Source: Bacteroidota bacterium (GTDB taxonomy: Bacteria; Bacteroidota; Bacteroidia; Chitinophagales; Saprospiraceae). From it: a DNA stretch of 64,000 nt. Positions 50,824 to 58,765 of the stretch are shown in pieces (position 1 is the stretch's first letter; each line of letters opens with the position of its first letter). The notes below the pieces were generated by a model. That model made no database searches and was not told the origin of the DNA. It saw only the letters and a program-made list of their open reading frames with translations. The stretch lies in contig JAIUPL010000025.1 in assembly GCA_020160935.1 (NCBI GenBank), forward strand, positions 17,501 through 81,500, written 5' to 3'. A program made the position numbers and the translations under genes.

Positions 50824-52845
50824 ATGGAACAAGAAGAAAAAAAACGTTCAAGACGCGAGGATGACAGCGAAAATCCACGCAGGGGAGATGAAGGCGGCGA
50901 CGGCATGCCGCGCTTCAGTTTTACCTGGATTTACGTGCTCGTAGGTCTGGCCCTGCTCGGTTTGCAAATGTCCAAAATGATGGGCGCTTCGCGCAAGGCC
51001 GACTGGTCCGACTTCGACCGCTGGGCCCACAAAGGCCAGATCGACCGCCTCGTGGTTGTTAACAACGAAGAAGCCTACATTTATATCCAGAAAGACTCGC
51101 TGGGCTTTGGCGAACACAAAGACATCAAATCGGAGCCCAACAAGTTCAATGCCGACCAGCCGCACTACATCATGAACATCGGTAAACCCGAGGTGATGGA
51201 GCCCAAACTGGCCAAACTGAACGAAGCGCTGATCAAGGAGAAAAAACAACCGATCACCGCCGAATACGACCCGCGCACCAACTGGACGGCCACTATACTG
51301 ACCTACCTGCTGCCCTTGCTGCTGTTCGTAGGCCTCTGGCTTTTTATCCTGCGCCGTATGGGCGGAGGCGCCGGTGGACCGGGCTCGCAGATTTTCAATA
51401 TCGGCAAATCGAAGGCTACCCTGTTCGATAACAGCACCAAGGTGAATATCACTTTTGCCGACGTGGCTGGCCTCGACGAAGCCAAAGAAGAAGTGATGGA
51501 AGTGGTGGATTTCCTGAAAAATCCGAAAAAATACACGACCCTGGGTGGTAAAATCCCCAAAGGTGTGCTGCTCGTAGGCCCTCCAGGTACCGGTAAAACC
51601 CTGCTGGCAAAAGCCGTGGCGGGAGAAGCCGGCGCGCCGTTTTTCTCCATTTCCGGTTCCGATTTCGTGGAAATGTTTGTCGGCGTAGGTGCCTCTCGCG
51701 TCCGCGACCTGTTCCGCCAGGCCCGTGAAAAAGCGCCTTGTATCATCTTTATCGACGAAATCGACGCCATCGGTCGCGCACGCGGTCGCGGCGCCATTCA
51801 AGGTGGCAACGACGAACGTGAAAACACCCTCAACCAGTTGCTGGTGGAAATGGACGGCTTCCCGACCGACAAGGGCGTTATCCTGATGGCTGCTACCAAT
51901 CGCCCGGATATTCTCGACCAGGCGCTGATGCGCCCGGGGCGCTTCGACCGCCAGATCGGCATCGGCCGACCGGATTTGAAAGGCCGTGCGCAGATTTTCG
52001 AGGTACACATGAAAACCATCAAAACAGCGCCGGAAGTGACTTCAAGCCAACTGGCCGAAATGACGCCCGGTTTTGTAGGCGCCGACATCGCCAATGTGTG
52101 CAACGAAGCAGCGCTGATCGCCGCCCGCCGGGGCAAAAAAGCCGTTGACATCGACGATTTTAACTACGCCCTCGATAAGGTAATCGGCGGTCTGGAAAAG
52201 AAAAACAAGATCATCAGTCCGGAAGAAAAGCAGATCATCGCCTACCACGAAGCAGGCCATGCGATTTGCGGCTGGTTCCTCGAACACGCGCATCCGCTCG
52301 TAAAAGTAACCATCGTGCCCCGTGGCTTGGCGGCGCTTGGCTACGCGCAATACCTGCCAAAAGAGCAATACATCACCCGCAAGGAAAAACTGCTCGACGA
52401 TATTTGTATGACCCTCGGCGGCCGCGCGGCCGAATCGGTGGTGTTCAACAAAATCAGCACCGGCGCACAAAGCGACCTCGACCATATCACACGCCTGTCG
52501 TACGATATGATTGTCAACTACGGCCTGAGCGACAAAATCGGCAATGTTTCGTATTACAGCATGCTGAACGAAAGTTATCAGCGTCCGTTCTCCGAGCAGA
52601 CGGCTTTTGCCATCGACCAGGAAGTGAAGGGTATGATCGACGAGCAATACGAGCGTTCGAAAAACCTGCTGCGTGAAAAACGCAAGGAACTCGACGCCCT
52701 GGCGCATGCCCTGCTCGAAAAAGAGGTACTGCACCGCAGCGATCTGGAGAATATCATCGGCAAACGCCCGTTCTCCGATCCAACGCCGGGCGAGAGTTTT
52801 ACCGTTCCAGAAATCGGCCCGGTTCGCACTGAAGACGATGATTAA
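50824..52845 (+). CDS. ftsH: ATP-dependent zinc metalloprotease FtsH
   Basis: 673 residues. Two membrane helices ([18 protein letters not shown] near 35; [20 protein letters not shown] near 160) flank a periplasmic domain. AAA module: Walker [13 protein letters not shown] (about 255), Walker [13 protein letters not shown], second region [23 protein letters not shown] with arginine fingers. Peptidase: [18 protein letters not shown] with HEAGH zinc ligands (about 475), and a later Asp. It degrades membrane and short-lived proteins as a hexamer. The charged N-terminus ([20 protein letters not shown]) is common in the phylum. ATG at 50824. Confidence 0.97.
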
Positions 52846-52964
52846 GCACATTGGATGATACGGATGGAGGACGGGCAGGAAAATTTTATCTGGTTTGATT
52901 ACAAAAAAGAAGAAATTTTCAGACGCCTGTGCTCCATCCGAAAAATCCGTTTTACCTTCGCCGC

Positions 52965-53024
52965 ATGTTCAAACACATCATTATTAGCAGCATTATTATT
53001 ATTCGTCCCGGCCAAAACGCCTGA
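52965..53024 (+). CDS. Candidate Ile-rich leader peptide upstream of ileS
   Basis: 19-codon frame ATG...TGA reading MFKHIIISSIIIIRPGQNA; 7 of 19 residues are Ile and all but one Ile codon is ATT. It lies 254 bases before ileS and 26 bases before a terminator hairpin. CCCGGC (53007-53012), just after the Ile codons, can pair with GCCGGG (53073-53078) in the terminator's right strand. Together this resembles a transcription attenuator that would sense charged tRNA-Ile. No ribosome-binding site is visible and no homologue is known to me; chance cannot be ruled out. Confidence 0.45.
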   Translation: MFKHIIISSIIIIRPGQNA

Positions 53025-53049
53025 CGTGGTGATGCTGTTCATAAAACAG

Positions 53050-53085
53050 AAACCCCGGTAGGTGCGATACTTGCCGGGGTTTTTG
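53050..53085 (+). terminator. Intrinsic terminator before ileS
   Basis: AAACCCCGG (53050-53058) pairs with CCGGGGTTT (53074-53082), followed by TTTTT. It can terminate ftsH transcription or act as the terminator half of an attenuator with the Ile-rich peptide. Confidence 0.8.
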
Positions 53086-53095
53086 ACTTAAATCT

Positions 53096-53247
53096 GTTAG
53101 TTATTAGTTATCAGTTATTGGTTATCAGGGTGGCAAGGAGACCGTCTGTGGATTTGTTTGGCATCCCTTATCGAGTGGCTATACAATTGTATAGACGGTC
53201 TCCTTACCACCCTGATAACTAATAACCAATAACTGATAACTAATAAC
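53096..53247. repeat. Family-B palindrome before ileS
   Basis: Left arm ~53096-53147 (GTTATTA/GTTATCA words, then AGGGTGGCAAGGAGACCGTCT), right arm ~53193-53247. Arms differ by one word. The loop contains GGCATCCCTTATCGAGTGGC at 53160-53179. The ileS start codon is 31 bases downstream. Confidence 0.95.
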
Positions 53248-53277
53248 TTCTTGCCCTCAACATTCACCTTTACTCAG

Positions 53278-56200
53278 ATGTACCGCGAATTCAAACACCT
53301 CCACCTCCCTTCCATCGACGCTGAAATCAGGCAATTCTGGGAAGACGAGCGCATTTTTGAAAAGTCAGTCGAACAGCGCCCCGCTGAGCAGTCATTCGTA
53401 TTTTACGAAGGCCCGCCATCGGCCAACGGTAAACCTGGTATTCACCACGTCATGGCACGGACGGTGAAAGACCTGTTTTGCCGCTACAACACCCTGAAAG
53501 GGCACCGCGTGGAGCGCAAAGGCGGTTGGGATACGCACGGGCTGCCCATCGAATTGCAGGTGGAAAAGGAACTTGGCATCACCAAGGAAGACATCGGTAA
53601 AAAAGTAACGGTAGAAGAATACAACCAGGCCTGCCGCAGCACCGTGATGCGCTACAAGGACTTGTGGGACGACATCACGCGCCGCATGGGCTACTGGGTC
53701 GACCTCGATAATCCGTACATCACATTTGAAAACGATTACATCGAGTCGTGCTGGTGGGTACTGCAACAGTTGTACGAGAAAAAGACTGCTTCCGGAGAGT
53801 CGTTTCTCTACAAAGGCTTTACTATTCAGCCGTATAGCCCCGCCGCTGGTACCGGCCTGAGCACGCACGAACTGAACATGCCAGGCTGCTACAAGGAGGT
53901 GACGGATATTTCCGTGGTCGCACAATTTAAAGTTAAATATGATGATAAGTCGGCTTTCCTATTTGATAGGGTTGATGAAGATGTTTATATCTTGGCGTGG
54001 ACGACCACACCGTGGACATTGCCTAGCAATGTTGCCCTTACTGTTGGGCCTAACATTGAATATGTGAAAGTTAGAACTTATAGCCAATATAGCCATAAAC
54101 CAATTTCAGTTGTTTTGGCTAAACATGCCGTCGAGGATTTTGATAGATATTTAGGAAGACCTACTTTTTCTAACCCTGAATGGAGTATGGGTTTATCAGG
54201 TGAAGTAGTTCAGAAAATTGAAAATTGGCTTCGTCAAGGCATTCCAACAGAAGTAGATTTGCAAAATGGCTACTATAATGTAACAATTGCAGGAGGCTTA
54301 AAACGTATAAGACGAACCCCATATAATTATTCACCAAATAATTCATTTTTAGGCTCCGAACTGGTCGGCCTGCGCTACGAACAACTCCTGCCCACACCGG
54401 CAGCCTCTACTCCCGAACTGGAGGCCAAAGCCTTCCGCGTGATCCCGGGCGATTTCGTGACGACGGAAGATGGTACCGGCGTGGTACACACAGCGCCTTA
54501 TTTTGGCGCCGACGACTTCCGGGCCAGCAAGGCTGCGGGCATTCCGTTTATCGGCATTCCAAACCCGAAAAACCCTGATTTGCCGTTTCCACTGGTGGAC
54601 AAGCAGGGGAAATTCGTGGAGGAGGTGCCGGAGTTTGGCGGCCGCTACGTCAAAGCCGAATACTATTCCAAAGAAGTGACGGCCGACAAGGAATTCAAAC
54701 CTACCGACCTGCTCATTTTCTTGCGCCTGAAAGAAGATAACAAGGCGTTTAAAGTAGAACGCTATAAACACAACTATCCGCACTGCTGGCGGACCGACAA
54801 ACCTGTGTTGTACTACCCGCTCGATTCATGGTTCATCCGTGCATCGGCCGCCCGCGAACGCATGTCGGAACTGAATAAAACCATCAACTGGAAACCGGCC
54901 AGCACCGGCACCGGTCGTTTTGGTCAGTGGCTCGACAACCTGCAGGACTGGAACCTTTCCCGTTCGCGCTATTGGGGCGTGCCGCTGCCGGTATGGCGCA
55001 CGGAAGATGGTGAAGAGGAAATCTGTATTGGATCGGTGGAAGAGTTGTACGATGAGATCGAGCGGGCCGTGGATGCCGGGGTGATGAAGGAGAATCCGTA
55101 TAAACGCATGGATGCGGAAGCAACGCGCGAAAAATTTGTTTTTACAGGAGATGTGACTATCTGGAATATTTTAAAACGTTTTAGCAGGGATAATCGGCAT
55201 GCCCCTACGCAAGAAGAAGATATGTTGTGGCAGGTACTGCGCAATCGCCAAGTAGAAGGTTTTAAATTCAGGCGGCAACATGCCATAGGTTCTTTCATAG
55301 CCGATTTTGTTTGCCTAGCAGCCAAACTGGTGGTGGAAGTGGACGGAGATTATCATAACTCTTCTGAGCAACGTGAATTTGATGAGGCAAGAACGGCTTA
55401 TCTAAATAATTTGGGATTTGAGGTAATTCGATTTACCAATGAAGAGGTGAATAGTAAAAAAGATTGGGTATTGAATGAAATTGCGCGTGTGTTGACCTCA
55501 CCCCCCGGCCCCCTCTCCGAGGGAGAGGGGGAGCGAGTACCCTTGGCATCCTTATCGGGGGATGCCAAGCGGGAAGTCACCCCCTCTCCCTCGGAGAGGG
55601 GGCCGGGGGGTGAGGTCTCAATGGCAGAGGTCGATCTCCACCGCCCCTACATCGATGAAGTTATCCTCGTTTCCCCTTCCGGCAAACCCATGCGCCGCGA
55701 ACTCGACCTCATCGACGTGTGGTTCGACAGCGGCTCCATGCCTTATGCGCAGTGGCACTATCCTTTTGAAAATCAGGGAGTTTTCAAAAATAACTTCCCG
55801 GCCAACTTCATTGCGGAAGGCGTCGACCAGACACGTGGATGGTTCTATACCCTGCATGCTATCGCTACGATGGTGTTCGACTCGGTGGCGTTTAAAAACG
55901 TGGTGTCCAACGGCCTGGTACTCGACAAGGAAGGCAACAAAATGTCGAAATCGAAGGGCAATGTGGTCGACCCGTTTGAAACGATCGCTGAATATGGCGC
56001 CGATGCTACCCGCTGGTACATGATGGCGAATGCCAACCCCTGGGACAACCTCAAATTCGACACTGGAGGCATCCTGGAAGTGCGGAATAAACTGTTCGGT
56101 ACGCTGTTCAATACGTACAACTTCTTTGCGCTGTATGCCAACCTCGACGGGTTTAAAATGGACGAATTCAAGGTGTTGCCGTACGACAAACGCAGCGAAC

Positions 56201-57327
56201 TCGACCGTTGGATCATTTCCAAACTATACTCGCTGGTGGCCGATTACCGCGAAGCCATGGATGATTACGATGTGACCCGCGGCTGCCGTGCTATCGAGTC
56301 ATTTGTCGATGAACACCTGTCGAACTGGTATGTGCGCCTGAGCCGCCGCCGTTTCTGGAAAGGTGAACTCAATGAAGACAAAACGGCGGCCTACCAAACG
56401 CTGTTTGAATGCCTGACGGTGGTGAGCCAACTCATGTCGTCGGTCGCGCCGTTCTTTGCCGATTGGCTGTTTCGCAACCTCACCGCGCCGGTGAAAGACG
56501 TGGCCAAAGCAAAAAACACACCCTTGCGCCACGATTCGGTGCACCTGAGCGACCTCGTGCAGCCCGACGCTTCGAAAGTAGACCAAGACCTGGAAAAGCG
56601 TATGGACTATGCCCAGCGCATTTGTTCGCTGGCATTGAGCATCCGCAAAAAGGAAAAACTACGCGTGCGTTTGCCTTTGCAAAAAATTATGCTGCCGGTA
56701 CTCGACGAAGCCTTTATCGCCGAAGTGGATGGTGTAAAAGACCTGATTCTCAGCGAGATCAATGTGAAAGGGATCGAATACATCACCGATGCGAGTGGCT
56801 TGCTGAAAAAAGCGGCCAAAGCCAATTTCAAAACCCTGGGTGCCAAACTGGGTAAGGATATGAAAGATGCTGCGGCGTTGATTGCAGAATTTACCAACGA
56901 TGACATCAACACCATCGAAAAAACGGGCGACATCAAAATACTGGTTCAGGGCAATGAGTACACCATCACGCCGGAAGACCTGGTGGTGACCACCGAAGAC
57001 CTGCCAGGCTGGAAAGTGGCCTCCGAAGGTGCGCTCACCGTAGCGCTCGATGTGCACATGACGCCCGCATTGCAGGCAGAAGGCACTGCACGCGACCTGG
57101 TGAATCGCATTCAAAACATTCGCAAGGAAAAGGATTTCAACGTGACCGACCGCATCACCGTGACGCTCGAGAAACACCAGGCTATTCTGTCTGCCGTCGA
57201 GCAATTCCACGAATACATCAAAGCCGAAGTGCTGGCCACCGATCTGGTGCTGGCTGATCAGGTAGGCGGCGAAAAAGTGGAACTGGATGATGTGGTGTCG
57301 ATTGGGATCGAAGTGACGGCGAATTGA
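53278..57327 (+). CDS. ileS: Isoleucyl-tRNA synthetase with inserted DUF559 domain
   Basis: 1349 residues from the ATG at 53278 (MYREFKHLHLPSIDAEIRQF), about 200 more than is usual for the phylum. Class I motifs: PSANGKPGIHHVMARTVKD (HIGH variant HHVM), editing-domain AWTTTPWTLPSNVALTVGPN, LIDVWFDSGSMPYAQWHYPF and GNKMSKSKGNVVDP (KMSKS). The HHVM form is the eukaryote-like branch that in known cases resists mupirocin. Residues ~620-783 are a foreign DUF559 endonuclease domain plus a palindrome-encoded peptide, inserted between NPYKRMDAEATREKF and VDLHRPYIDE without breaking the frame. Residues ~217-359 are encoded by A+T-rich DNA unlike the rest. All catalytic motifs are present, so the enzyme is probably active. 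Confidence 0.95.
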   Translation: MYREFKHLHLPSIDAEIRQFWEDERIFEKSVEQRPAEQSFVFYEGPPSANGKPGIHHVMARTVKDLFCRYNTLKGHRVERKGGWDTHGLPIELQVEKELGITKEDIGKKVTVEEYNQACRSTVMRYKDLWDDITRRMGYWVDLDNPYITFENDYIESCWWVLQQLYEKKTASGESFLYKGFTIQPYSPAAGTGLSTHELNMPGCYKEVTDISVVAQFKVKYDDKSAFLFDRVDEDVYILAWTTTPWTLPSNVALTVGPNIEYVKVRTYSQYSHKPISVVLAKHAVEDFDRYLGRPTFSNPEWSMGLSGEVVQKIENWLRQGIPTEVDLQNGYYNVTIAGGLKRIRRTPYNYSPNNSFLGSELVGLRYEQLLPTPAASTPELEAKAFRVIPGDFVTTEDGTGVVHTAPYFGADDFRASKAAGIPFIGIPNPKNPDLPFPLVDKQGKFVEEVPEFGGRYVKAEYYSKEVTADKEFKPTDLLIFLRLKEDNKAFKVERYKHNYPHCWRTDKPVLYYPLDSWFIRASAARERMSELNKTINWKPASTGTGRFGQWLDNLQDWNLSRSRYWGVPLPVWRTEDGEEEICIGSVEELYDEIERAVDAGVMKENPYKRMDAEATREKFVFTGDVTIWNILKRFSRDNRHAPTQEEDMLWQVLRNRQVEGFKFRRQHAIGSFIADFVCLAAKLVVEVDGDYHNSSEQREFDEARTAYLNNLGFEVIRFTNEEVNSKKDWVLNEIARVLTSPPGPLSEGEGERVPLASLSGDAKREVTPSPSERGPGGEVSMAEVDLHRPYIDEVILVSPSGKPMRRELDLIDVWFDSGSMPYAQWHYPFENQGVFKNNFPANFIAEGVDQTRGWFYTLHAIATMVFDSVAFKNVVSNGLVLDKEGNKMSKSKGNVVDPFETIAEYGADATRWYMMANANPWDNLKFDTGGILEVRNKLFGTLFNTYNFFALYANLDGFKMDEFKVLPYDKRSELDRWIISKLYSLVADYREAMDDYDVTRGCRAIESFVDEHLSNWYVRLSRRRFWKGELNEDKTAAYQTLFECLTVVSQLMSSVAPFFADWLFRNLTAPVKDVAKAKNTPLRHDSVHLSDLVQPDASKVDQDLEKRMDYAQRICSLALSIRKKEKLRVRLPLQKIMLPVLDEAFIAEVDGVKDLILSEINVKGIEYITDASGLLKKAAKANFKTLGAKLGKDMKDAAALIAEFTNDDINTIEKTGDIKILVQGNEYTITPEDLVVTTEDLPGWKVASEGALTVALDVHMTPALQAEGTARDLVNRIQNIRKEKDFNVTDRITVTLEKHQAILSAVEQFHEYIKAEVLATDLVLADQVGGEKVELDDVVSIGIEVTAN
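53925..54355 (+). other. A+T-rich mosaic segment inside ileS
   Basis: Codons change abruptly near GTGGTCGCACAATTTAAAG to GAT, GTT, AGA, TAT and AAT-rich use, and return at GGCTCCGAACTGGTCGG. The encoded part (FKVKYDDKSAFLF to YNYSPNNSFLGS) still fits the IleRS editing-domain region. It looks like a homologous replacement from a lower-GC relative. Boundaries are approximate. Confidence 0.65.
55136..55626 (+). mobile_element. In-frame DUF559 endonuclease cassette in ileS
   Basis: About 490 bases with no stop. It encodes a DUF559 domain: TQEEDMLWQVLRNRQVEGFK, FRRQHAIGSFIADFVCLA, KLVVEVDGDYHNSSEQREF, DEARTAYLNNLGFEVIRFTN and EVNSKKDWVLNEIARVL. The Asp of ADFVC and the EVD of VVEVDG fit the PD-(D/E)xK metal site of the Vsr-like nuclease fold. 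A palindrome (55494-55617) completes it. Stand-alone DUF559 genes are common in bacteria. There are no intein splice motifs, so the segment probably stays in the protein. Confidence 0.8.
55494..55617. repeat. GC-rich palindrome within the DUF559 cassette, translated in frame
   Basis: Perfect 38-bp arms 55494-55531 and 55580-55617 (GACCTCACCCCCCGGCCCCC outward), loop 48 bases with an inner hairpin CTTGGCATCC (55542-55551) / GGATGCCAAG (55560-55569). The arms are read as TSPPGPLSEGEGE and SPSERGPGGEV. I recall similar sequence next to DUF559 genes in other Bacteroidota. Confidence 0.95.
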
Positions 57328-57344
57328 AGTCGACAGTAGGAGAA

Positions 57345-57376
57345 AGGCGATGACGGGGAGTCATCGCCTATTTTTA
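57345..57376. terminator. Bidirectional terminator between ileS and the Fic gene
   Basis: AGGCGATGA (57345-57353) pairs with TCATCGCCT (57361-57369), then ATTTTTAT on the plus strand. The minus strand also has a run of T's before the Fic stop. It is a normal short hairpin, unlike the word-repeat palindromes elsewhere. Confidence 0.8.
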
Positions 57377-58765
57377 TATACCTTTAGATTGGCGGTTGAT
57401 TTGTTCCATTATCGCGTTTATGAATGATTTTCTTAGTTCATAGTTTTCGGCCTTGCTGATTTCCTGATGGTATAATTTTTCAATATGAGGGATGGAGGCG
57501 ATTTTTCCTTGATTAAATTTATACTTATACTTGTCCAATTTGATATTAATATCTTGGTGAATATCTGAAGGTTCTACGGTGTGTAAAAAGCCTTGCCAGT
57601 TAGTTCTGAAAATAATTTCATGAATATCTGACCATTTTCCTTTGAGTTCGTTTACCCAGTACTGATCAAAATTGTCTTTATTGGTAATGTGTTCATATTT
57701 ACCCTCAGTAGATAAACCACTACCTTGAAAATCAATGATAAAGGACACCGAATGAAACATGTCTTTCAACTTTAAACAATCTTCTTTTAATTGTTCAAAA
57801 AAAGGCAATATGCTTTTTTCAATTAAGTTGTTGACTACCGTTATATCCTTGATCGTTTTTACAACAGGTTCTGACTTGAACCCTTTTTTAAAGAGTGCAA
57901 TCTCCTTATCCAAATCCCCTTCATCTTCAATACTTTCTCCTTTAGCTCCTTTCAAATAAATTTCGAGGGAATGCAACAGGTTTTCTCCTATGAATTCCAC
58001 GAATGAAGCCAAGTCACCTGCATCCGCTTGTCTTAGAGCATTGTAGTATAAATTGCGTTCTTCCTGTTTTATTACAACTGGAGGGTAACCATCCTGCATC
58101 AACAACAAATTCATGAGCAAGCGTGACATCCGGCCATTCCCGTCATCAAAAGGGTGGATGTCAACAAAACGATAATGGAAAATGGCTGCTATGGCTAAAG
58201 GGTGCAACTCTTTTTTTACTTGTTCTTCTCGCAGCCAGGCCATTAAATCGGCCATTTTTGAGGGCGTTTCCTCAGGGGTGGCGTAATAGTGTATTTCGCC
58301 AGTGGGAGTTTTTACATGATTGGGCATTTTCTTGTATGCCCCGAGTGTTATTTCTTTTTCAACCCGTAACCCATCCTGTGTTTGTGCAGGCGTTTTGTAT
58401 GGTTCTACTAAAATAACCCGGTGTAATTCTCGTATTGCTTTTTCAGATAATTCCTGATGATTTTTTATCATTTCCATCAGGTAGTTAATTGCGTCGTTAT
58501 GCCCTCTGATATCCAGGTGATCTTTGAATGGTTTGCCTTTTGCGGTGAGGCCTTCCATTAAAAATGCAATGGTTTCGCCATAAGTCAATGAATTTCCTTC
58601 AATAGAATTGGAATGATAGTTCCAGTCCAGCCTGAATTTCTGCATTACTCTTGCCTCCTGTTCGGCATCCAAAGGCCGAAGGGAATCCAGTGCGGCTTTT
58701 AGTTGATCTACTCTTTCCAGCAAGGTTTTCAATCCCGAGATTATTTCAGGCAAATTGGATGGCAT
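57374..58765 (-). CDS. Fic family protein (Fic_N plus Fic domain)
   Basis: 463 residues, ATG at 58765. N-terminal Fic_N domain with WNYHSNSIEGNSLTYGETIAF; the SNSIEGN segment is the inhibitory helix of class II Fic proteins. The core motif is HPFDDGNGRMSRLLMN (His for AMP transfer, Asp-Gly-Asn-Gly-Arg for ATP). A ~190-residue C-terminal region is of unknown type. Fic proteins add AMP or other groups to target hydroxyls; the target is unknown and no separate antitoxin is needed with the built-in inhibitory helix. Codons are more A+T-rich than neighbours, suggesting transfer. A TACCTTTG box precedes it. Confidence 0.92.
   Translation of the reverse strand: MPSNLPEIISGLKTLLERVDQLKAALDSLRPLDAEQEARVMQKFRLDWNYHSNSIEGNSLTYGETIAFLMEGLTAKGKPFKDHLDIRGHNDAINYLMEMIKNHQELSEKAIRELHRVILVEPYKTPAQTQDGLRVEKEITLGAYKKMPNHVKTPTGEIHYYATPEETPSKMADLMAWLREEQVKKELHPLAIAAIFHYRFVDIHPFDDGNGRMSRLLMNLLLMQDGYPPVVIKQEERNLYYNALRQADAGDLASFVEFIGENLLHSLEIYLKGAKGESIEDEGDLDKEIALFKKGFKSEPVVKTIKDITVVNNLIEKSILPFFEQLKEDCLKLKDMFHSVSFIIDFQGSGLSTEGKYEHITNKDNFDQYWVNELKGKWSDIHEIIFRTNWQGFLHTVEPSDIHQDINIKLDKYKYKFNQGKIASIPHIEKLYHQEISKAENYELRKSFINAIMEQINRQSKGI

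Follow-up and report, generated by a model that had tools for sequence, protein, structure and literature searches.

How does the gene for an essential enzyme come to carry, within its reading frame, a complete nuclease domain and a long palindrome that is itself translated? The question is raised by ileS, the gene for isoleucyl-tRNA synthetase (IleRS), in a 64,000-nt stretch of a Saprospiraceae genome (GenBank assembly GCA_020160935.1, contig JAIUPL010000025.1), hereafter called the window; all coordinates are positions within it, on the + strand of ileS. A first-pass annotation of the sequence had described a DUF559 endonuclease and a palindrome inserted in frame in this gene and had likened the layout to that of Rickettsia palindromic elements, here supplemented by a nuclease. 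Our analysis indicates that the insert is probably one member of a mobile-element family that is spread through the Bacteroidota, is homing-like, and lies in frame in host genes that translate it. Many further genes of the phylum hold inserts of this kind, a scale that goes beyond the initial annotation.

The insert in ileS

The ileS open reading frame (ORF) runs from 53251 to 57327 without interruption, and Pfam places DUF559 at IleRS residues 632–738 (E 3.8e-34), flanked by tRNA-synt_1, Anticodon_1 and DUF5915. The nuclease is therefore in frame with the IleRS parts kept around it, as had been annotated, and the reported lack of intein motifs agrees with the absence of any intein family among the Pfam matches to the IleRS protein (E 1e-3). 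In a phmmer comparison with solved IleRS from the PDB, the alignment ends at residue 598 and restarts at 784, which leaves ∼185 extra residues, and genome G028, which stands closest to the studied genome on the host tree, has only 27 nt where the studied ileS has residues 599–783. Together these place the extra stretch at ∼55075–55629. The annotation had given the insert as 55136–55626 and ∼164 residues and had proposed an alignment with IleRS relatives to find the junction; the nuclease does begin at that point, but the alignment puts the junction at residues 599–783, so that the whole stretch is longer on the left. A search found one ileS match in the studied genome (10 of 40 first-look candidates scored), and a genome search returned one DUF559 match. 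The features are as follows.

53281–57327, + strand: ileS (isoleucyl-tRNA synthetase), the host gene (ORF, Pfam; start picked by similarity to relatives)
55075–55629, + strand: whole extra stretch, residues 599–783, relative to solved IleRS and the empty relative G028 (phmmer to PDB; G028 comparison)
55075–55134, + strand: left linker, no left palindrome (read by eye)
55135–55494, + strand: nuclease domain, DUF559, Vsr/EDxHD-like (Pfam, invariant columns, structure model, fold match, selection)
55494–55617, + strand: 124-nt REPIN-like palindrome, two hairpins in inverted order, translated in frame (repeat analysis)
55509–55531, + strand: hairpin 1, CCCCCTCTCC-GAG-GGAGAGGGGG (repeat analysis)
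55580–55602, + strand: hairpin 2, CCCCCTCTCC-CTC-GGAGAGGGGG (repeat analysis)
55630–57327, + strand: IleRS restarts in frame, VDLHRPYIDE... (ORF, phmmer alignment)

Residues E646, D675, E686, D688 and H692 of the nuclease domain are invariant in 41 aligned nuclease rows, and its predicted structure (predicted local distance difference test, pLDDT, 88.4) matches Vsr and the homing endonuclease I-Bth0305I in fold comparison. In fold and in conserved acidic and histidine residues alike, the insert nuclease is of the EDxHD/Vsr type. Among five alleles carrying the same nuclease type (type A, see below), the ratio of nonsynonymous to synonymous differences per site (pN/pS) is 0.15–0.30 for the nuclease, with synonymous sites near saturation, 0.04–0.16 for the host ileS, and 0.57–2.14 for the palindrome, where pS is low (0.15–0.45). 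By these ratios the nuclease is under purifying selection and constrained as a protein, and the palindrome is constrained rather as DNA, or young, or refreshed. A structure model of IleRS with the insert was unusable (mean pLDDT 42.4, predicted template modelling score, pTM, 0.26), and we therefore make no claim about where the nuclease domain sits on the enzyme.

The palindrome is translated in frame, as first described, and its arms (55494–55551 and 55560–55617) are 58 nt each and 86% complementary. The predicted RNA fold of 55490–55622 reaches −124.7 kcal/mol (z −12.25), a value that none of 200 shuffles equals; in the ileS mRNA the translated palindrome would give a hairpin of this stability, to be crossed by ribosomes. 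The studied copy is atypical of the family described below in that it has its full two-hairpin unit 3′ of the nuclease, with no hairpin remaining on the left.

Related inserts in other genes of the Bacteroidota

A search of named genomes with an alignment of 13 insert nucleases (query A1) confirmed at least 557 relatives, of which the best 80 were kept. Defining a nuclease as embedded when more than 80 residues of open frame lie on each side of it, 64 of these best 80 loci carry embedded copies, a share biased by a query built from embedded copies and by keeping only the best 80 of at least 557. A survey of the phylum with PF04480 found a DUF559 match in 222 of 392 genomes, and 40 of the 150 matches listed sit in frames of at least 500 aa, which is the less biased figure. 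The named carriers are Bacteroidota together with one Ignavibacterium bin (an embedded copy in MetH) and one Anaerolineales bin (a free-standing copy). As for plasmids and phages, 41 of 72,556 plasmid and 3 of 50,697 phage records matched, all at below 60% identity.

Pfam scans of the studied IleRS and 20 other host proteins resolved 20 host families: IleRS, MutS, a DNA2-like AAA helicase, HemD, MetH, LeuRS, ValRS, MetRS, RecG, CinA, adenine deaminase, methylmalonyl-CoA mutase with MeaB, GH31, ABC-F, M23 peptidase, urocanase, UDP-GlcNAc 2-epimerase, PurL, a UvrD-type helicase and RecQ. Host domains stand on both sides of DUF559 in 14 of them, and the insert falls between Pfam domains in MetH, CinA, RecG, MetRS, urocanase and PurL. 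The listed host matches lie only after the insert in the AAA helicase, HemD and M23, RecQ has the nuclease at its N-terminal edge, and in ABC-F and UDP-GlcNAc 2-epimerase a second host stretch was matched, its placement not given. Eight genomes, the single-contig genome G522 included, yielded no LeuRS (E 1e-60) other than the insert-bearing one; G105 and G184 have a LeuRS without insert, its two host parts 6 nt apart. By eye, similar nuclease inserts also appear in apparent type I restriction R and S subunits (loci L194, L197, L202 and L189).

Many copies have recognizable ends. When the 240 nt on either side of the nuclease are compared, 41 of 80 elements show an inverted repeat scoring at least 15, as against 0 of 306 random windows from the same loci (80 of the 83 element rows of named loci were counted, three having too little flank). 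When compared with the best of 20 mononucleotide shuffles, the inverted repeats of 83 of 110 embedded rows and 18 of 26 others surpass it (136 of 137 rows, one with too little flank; the 110 include four duplicate loci, L156–L159), as do those of 22 of 30 phylum loci. Clear ends consist of a tail and a hairpin, for example CCTCACCCCCCGG-CCCCCTCTCC-NNN-GGAGAGGGGG, and the Flavobacteriia ends read CCCCCC.G-CCCCC-GAA-GGGGG-AG. A different, free-standing DUF559 subfamily (L065, L073) is likewise bracketed by inverted hairpins. Among elements with a repeat score of at least 15, counting frames below 260 aa as free-standing, an in-frame ATG lies between the left repeat and the nuclease in 9 of 57 embedded vs 17 of 18 free-standing copies; judged from these sequences, intragenic copies thus mostly seem to rely on translation of the host.

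The nuclease tree (161 sequences, 120 columns, 71 of 158 inner branches open; L156–L159 and two identical rows left out) indicates how the elements relate to their sites. Host and site labels need 56 changes on it, where the minimum is 18 and the mean of shuffled labels 115, so insertion sites have been partly inherited and partly switched. Related nucleases occur at different sites: a clade with support 90 holds 11 rows of the studied genus, from IleRS, MutS, HemD and helicase hosts, and one Rufibacter MetH row. In Flavobacterium (L114), two MetH sites hold nucleases with 84.7% identity to each other, whereas the site-1 MetH nucleases of L114 and L112 share 53.3% and L112's own two copies 52.5%.

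The ileS site and the hairpins in related genomes

A nuclease occupies this ileS site in nine of the 42 genus genomes searched. By eye these fall into type A (the studied genome G000, G006, G031, G007 and G021), type B (G026, G034 and G064) and type C (G061). Different nuclease lineages sit at one site. The ileS genes of G020 and G033 have apparent palindrome-derived residues only, and the remaining relatives read have linkers without a nuclease. The annotation had reasoned that the same insert across the whole phylum would make it an old domain, and had named an assembly error joining two loci as the other danger. The insert is instead patchy even within the genus, and the type A nuclease at the same place in the separate assemblies of G006, G031, G007 and G021 speaks against an assembly joint. 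A left-linker tail like AG.M..N.Y is common to other type A alleles and to the uninserted alleles of G005, G013 and G014 (by eye); the linker ahead of the nuclease is also unlike empty alleles.

In a host tree built from 30 ileS genes with the insert region removed, type A requires at least four changes, and neighbours stand in opposite insert states: G000/G028 (support 99), G007/G009 (95) and G021/G017 (91). Type A shows no clustering on this tree beyond shuffled labels (4 changes vs a shuffled mean of 4.7). Distances between the nucleases show no correlation with those between the hosts (rho 0.12), which with 10 non-independent pairs is suggestive only. As regards homing, what was observed is the pattern of presence and absence at the ileS site. 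Co-conversion of the ileS flanks was considered and rejected: blocks adjacent to the insert are at best slightly nearer insert-bearing alleles than G028, and blocks away from it are also not closest to G028. Two further observations were made at ileS. In G021 and G061 (L053, L055) a second palindrome-like in-frame insertion is seen by eye, in both at the FWK..DK place of IleRS, and contig C185 of G031 has a second ileS-like gene, its nuclease region not matched, beside the inserted one, possibly by contamination.

The studied genome holds 22 perfect hairpins, compared with 0 for a reversed control, and six hairpin pairs, the ileS pair included, with a spacing of 70–71 nt; nuclease-free hairpins are present elsewhere in the genome. 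Fifteen of the 22 hairpin loci were read, and 8 are within some open frame of more than 150 codons and 7 in none. Full-length copies of the ileS palindrome in the same genome are 91.9–93.6% (three copies) and 88.5% (a fourth) identical to it, and a shorter-spaced copy 70.2%; the ileS palindromes of G006, G031 and G007 are 88.0, 90.0 and 68.6% identical. Refreshing of the ileS palindrome specifically from its own genome's family was rejected as an account, the identity gap to the ileS palindromes of other genomes being small. Of the genus genomes, 11 of the 15 that carry an insert nuclease have at least three hairpins, as do 4 of the 27 that carry none (p 4e-4; insert-bearing genomes read by eye from the search of the genus).

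Elsewhere in and around the host gene, ∼53900–54399 is AT-rich (37.5–41% GC in 200-nt windows vs 50–60% in most host windows), and IleRS residues ∼285–345 inside it match relatives poorly. Directly 5′ of ileS, 53097–53243 contains an inverted repeat of 66 nt, 83% complementary, of GTTATTAGTTATCAG-type sequence.

Explanations and comparison with known systems

The explanation that we favour is thus a homing-like mobile element: a Vsr/EDxHD-type nuclease gene, often bracketed by hairpins resembling repetitive extragenic palindromes (REPs), that would settle in tolerant linkers of housekeeping proteins. The nuclease, presumably made as part of the host enzyme and retained in it at maturity, would cut or nick empty alleles or hairpin ends, and repair would then copy the element into the cut allele. 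The hairpins would be the recognized ends and may be able to spread alone, and location in an essential gene would both secure expression and make imprecise loss lethal.

Several results weigh against this explanation. No strong repeat pair is present in 39 of the 80 named elements, the studied ileS nuclease is itself not bracketed by strong inverted repeats, and the linkers are too diverged to place element ends to the base, so no target duplication was established. When GTG and TTG are counted, a possible start is found in 29 of 57 embedded copies. The hairpin association tests ignore phylogeny and count hairpins inside elements; moreover, G033, G025, G009 and G016 have at least three hairpins but no insert nuclease, and G026 and G063 an insert nuclease but no hairpin of the pattern. 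In G034 the frame that follows the insert, at a contig edge, does not encode IleRS. Finally, the type A nucleases remain compatible with the host topology (approximately unbiased test, 0.205 for DNA and 0.05 for protein). A topological proof of type A transfer therefore failed, gain and loss at the ileS site are inseparable by these trees, and descent with many losses there would also fit.

Such descent is part of an older-fusion account, in which the nuclease is an accessory domain that helps its host and was lost in some lineages. It would fit the purifying selection, the clustering of same-site copies on the nuclease tree and the compatibility of the ileS-site topology with the host tree, but ∼20 unrelated host families, neighbouring species in opposite insert states, hairpin repeats at the edges of many elements and different nuclease lineages at one site make it decidedly unlikely. 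The resemblance of the element ends to REP/REPIN units, together with two Y1_Tnp genes in the studied genome, could instead mean that the hairpins owe their movement to a Y1 (REP-type) transposase, with the nuclease as a mere hitch-hiker. We regard this as unlikely: at least three hairpins occur in 13 of 34 genomes with Y1_Tnp and in 2 of 8 that lack it (p 0.69; rho 0.05 for the counts), hairpins are present in G061 and G032, neither of which has a Y1_Tnp match, and the 3.2–3.3 kb around the two Y1 genes of the studied genome contains no complete such hairpin.

Removal of the insert before the enzyme matures, through an unrecognized intron, by protein splicing or by ribosomes bypassing the hairpin, is suggested by the essential host and the very stable hairpin (−124.7 kcal/mol). 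This too appears improbable, given that no intein family was found in 21 host proteins (E 1e-3 for the studied IleRS, 1e-8 for the other 20) and no Rfam intron at gathering score in 52800–57500 of the window or in 7 host loci. Removal at the RNA level would need no open frame, and hence the 64 embedded loci, whose frame spans arms, nuclease and host without a stop, also count against it, albeit as loci that were defined by that frame. As for an assembly or frameshift artefact, many of the genomes are metagenome bins and G034 has its frame problem, but the same arrangement recurs across separate assemblies, and long-frame copies are present in named cultured strains, carriers of this sort being Flavobacterium frigidimaris DSM 15937 (MetH) and Marinilabilia salmonicolor (IleRS), and in the single-contig genomes G522, G525, G549 and G649; an artefact is thus hardly conceivable.

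Beyond the homing-like element itself, we tentatively propose, as a possibility somewhat short of probable, a new mobile class: hairpin-ended homing nucleases that are startless, reside permanently and unspliced in essential proteins, draw on the host for translation and on its essentiality as a guard against deletion, and also move nuclease-free REP-like hairpins, the nuclease being the missing mobilizer for a set of REP repeats. If so, a selfish nuclease persists in core enzymes without removing itself, the linkers of tRNA synthetases, MetH and MutS are a phylum-wide habitat for mobile DNA, and some REP-like repeats may be driven by a nuclease and not a transposase. It would also account for the over-long core proteins of Bacteroidota and show where large enzymes naturally tolerate an insertion. 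This would be a family of mobile DNA that has been little noticed so far: like the annotation, which knew of no earlier description, we found none in the titles and abstract starts of open-licence PubMed Central, where 14 papers mention DUF559, a scope that leaves subscription journals and preprint servers outside.

The novelty lies in the fact that the element fails a defining test of every known kind tried, although a stricter reader could class it as a variant of in-frame palindromic elements. It resembles homing-endonuclease inteins in having a nuclease in frame in an essential host protein with patchy presence, and differs in that no splicing (Hint) domain is among the Pfam matches in the 21 hosts; the Rfam result above likewise sets it apart from group I and II intron nucleases. 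It shares the catalytic fold with I-Bth0305I, Vsr and DUF559, the last of which is assigned to the EDxHD homing family (PMC9403480). Homing enzymes of the EDxHD type, I-Bth0305I among them, are described as group I intron endonucleases with extended DNA-binding parts (PMC3943268), whereas here a bare catalytic domain, in many cases flanked by hairpins, lies in a protein that is apparently unspliced. Seen against insertion sequences and MITEs, with their terminal inverted repeats and target site duplications, strong repeat pairs stand around 41 of 80 elements and not around the studied nuclease. Paired inverted hairpins in many copies per genome recall REP/REPIN sequences and their RAYT transposases, but in the genus the hairpins track the insert DUF559 and not the Y1 transposase (phylogeny ignored). 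CGTC REPs, some of them in Bacteroidetes, are noted to lack a known transposase (PMC3733652); no likeness of the hairpin to GTAG or CGTC tags was seen by eye. The comparison with Rickettsia palindromic elements, drawn at the outset, is apt. Those elements and intragenic REPs are described as palindromic repeats in frame in genes whose proteins likely function (PMC10969869, PMC3733652), and an in-frame palindrome within a protein-coding gene is what the two have in common. The known ones are described as short peptide-encoding repeats, and Rickettsia palindromic elements belong to Rickettsiales; the element described here carries a nuclease, and its carriers are mostly Bacteroidota.
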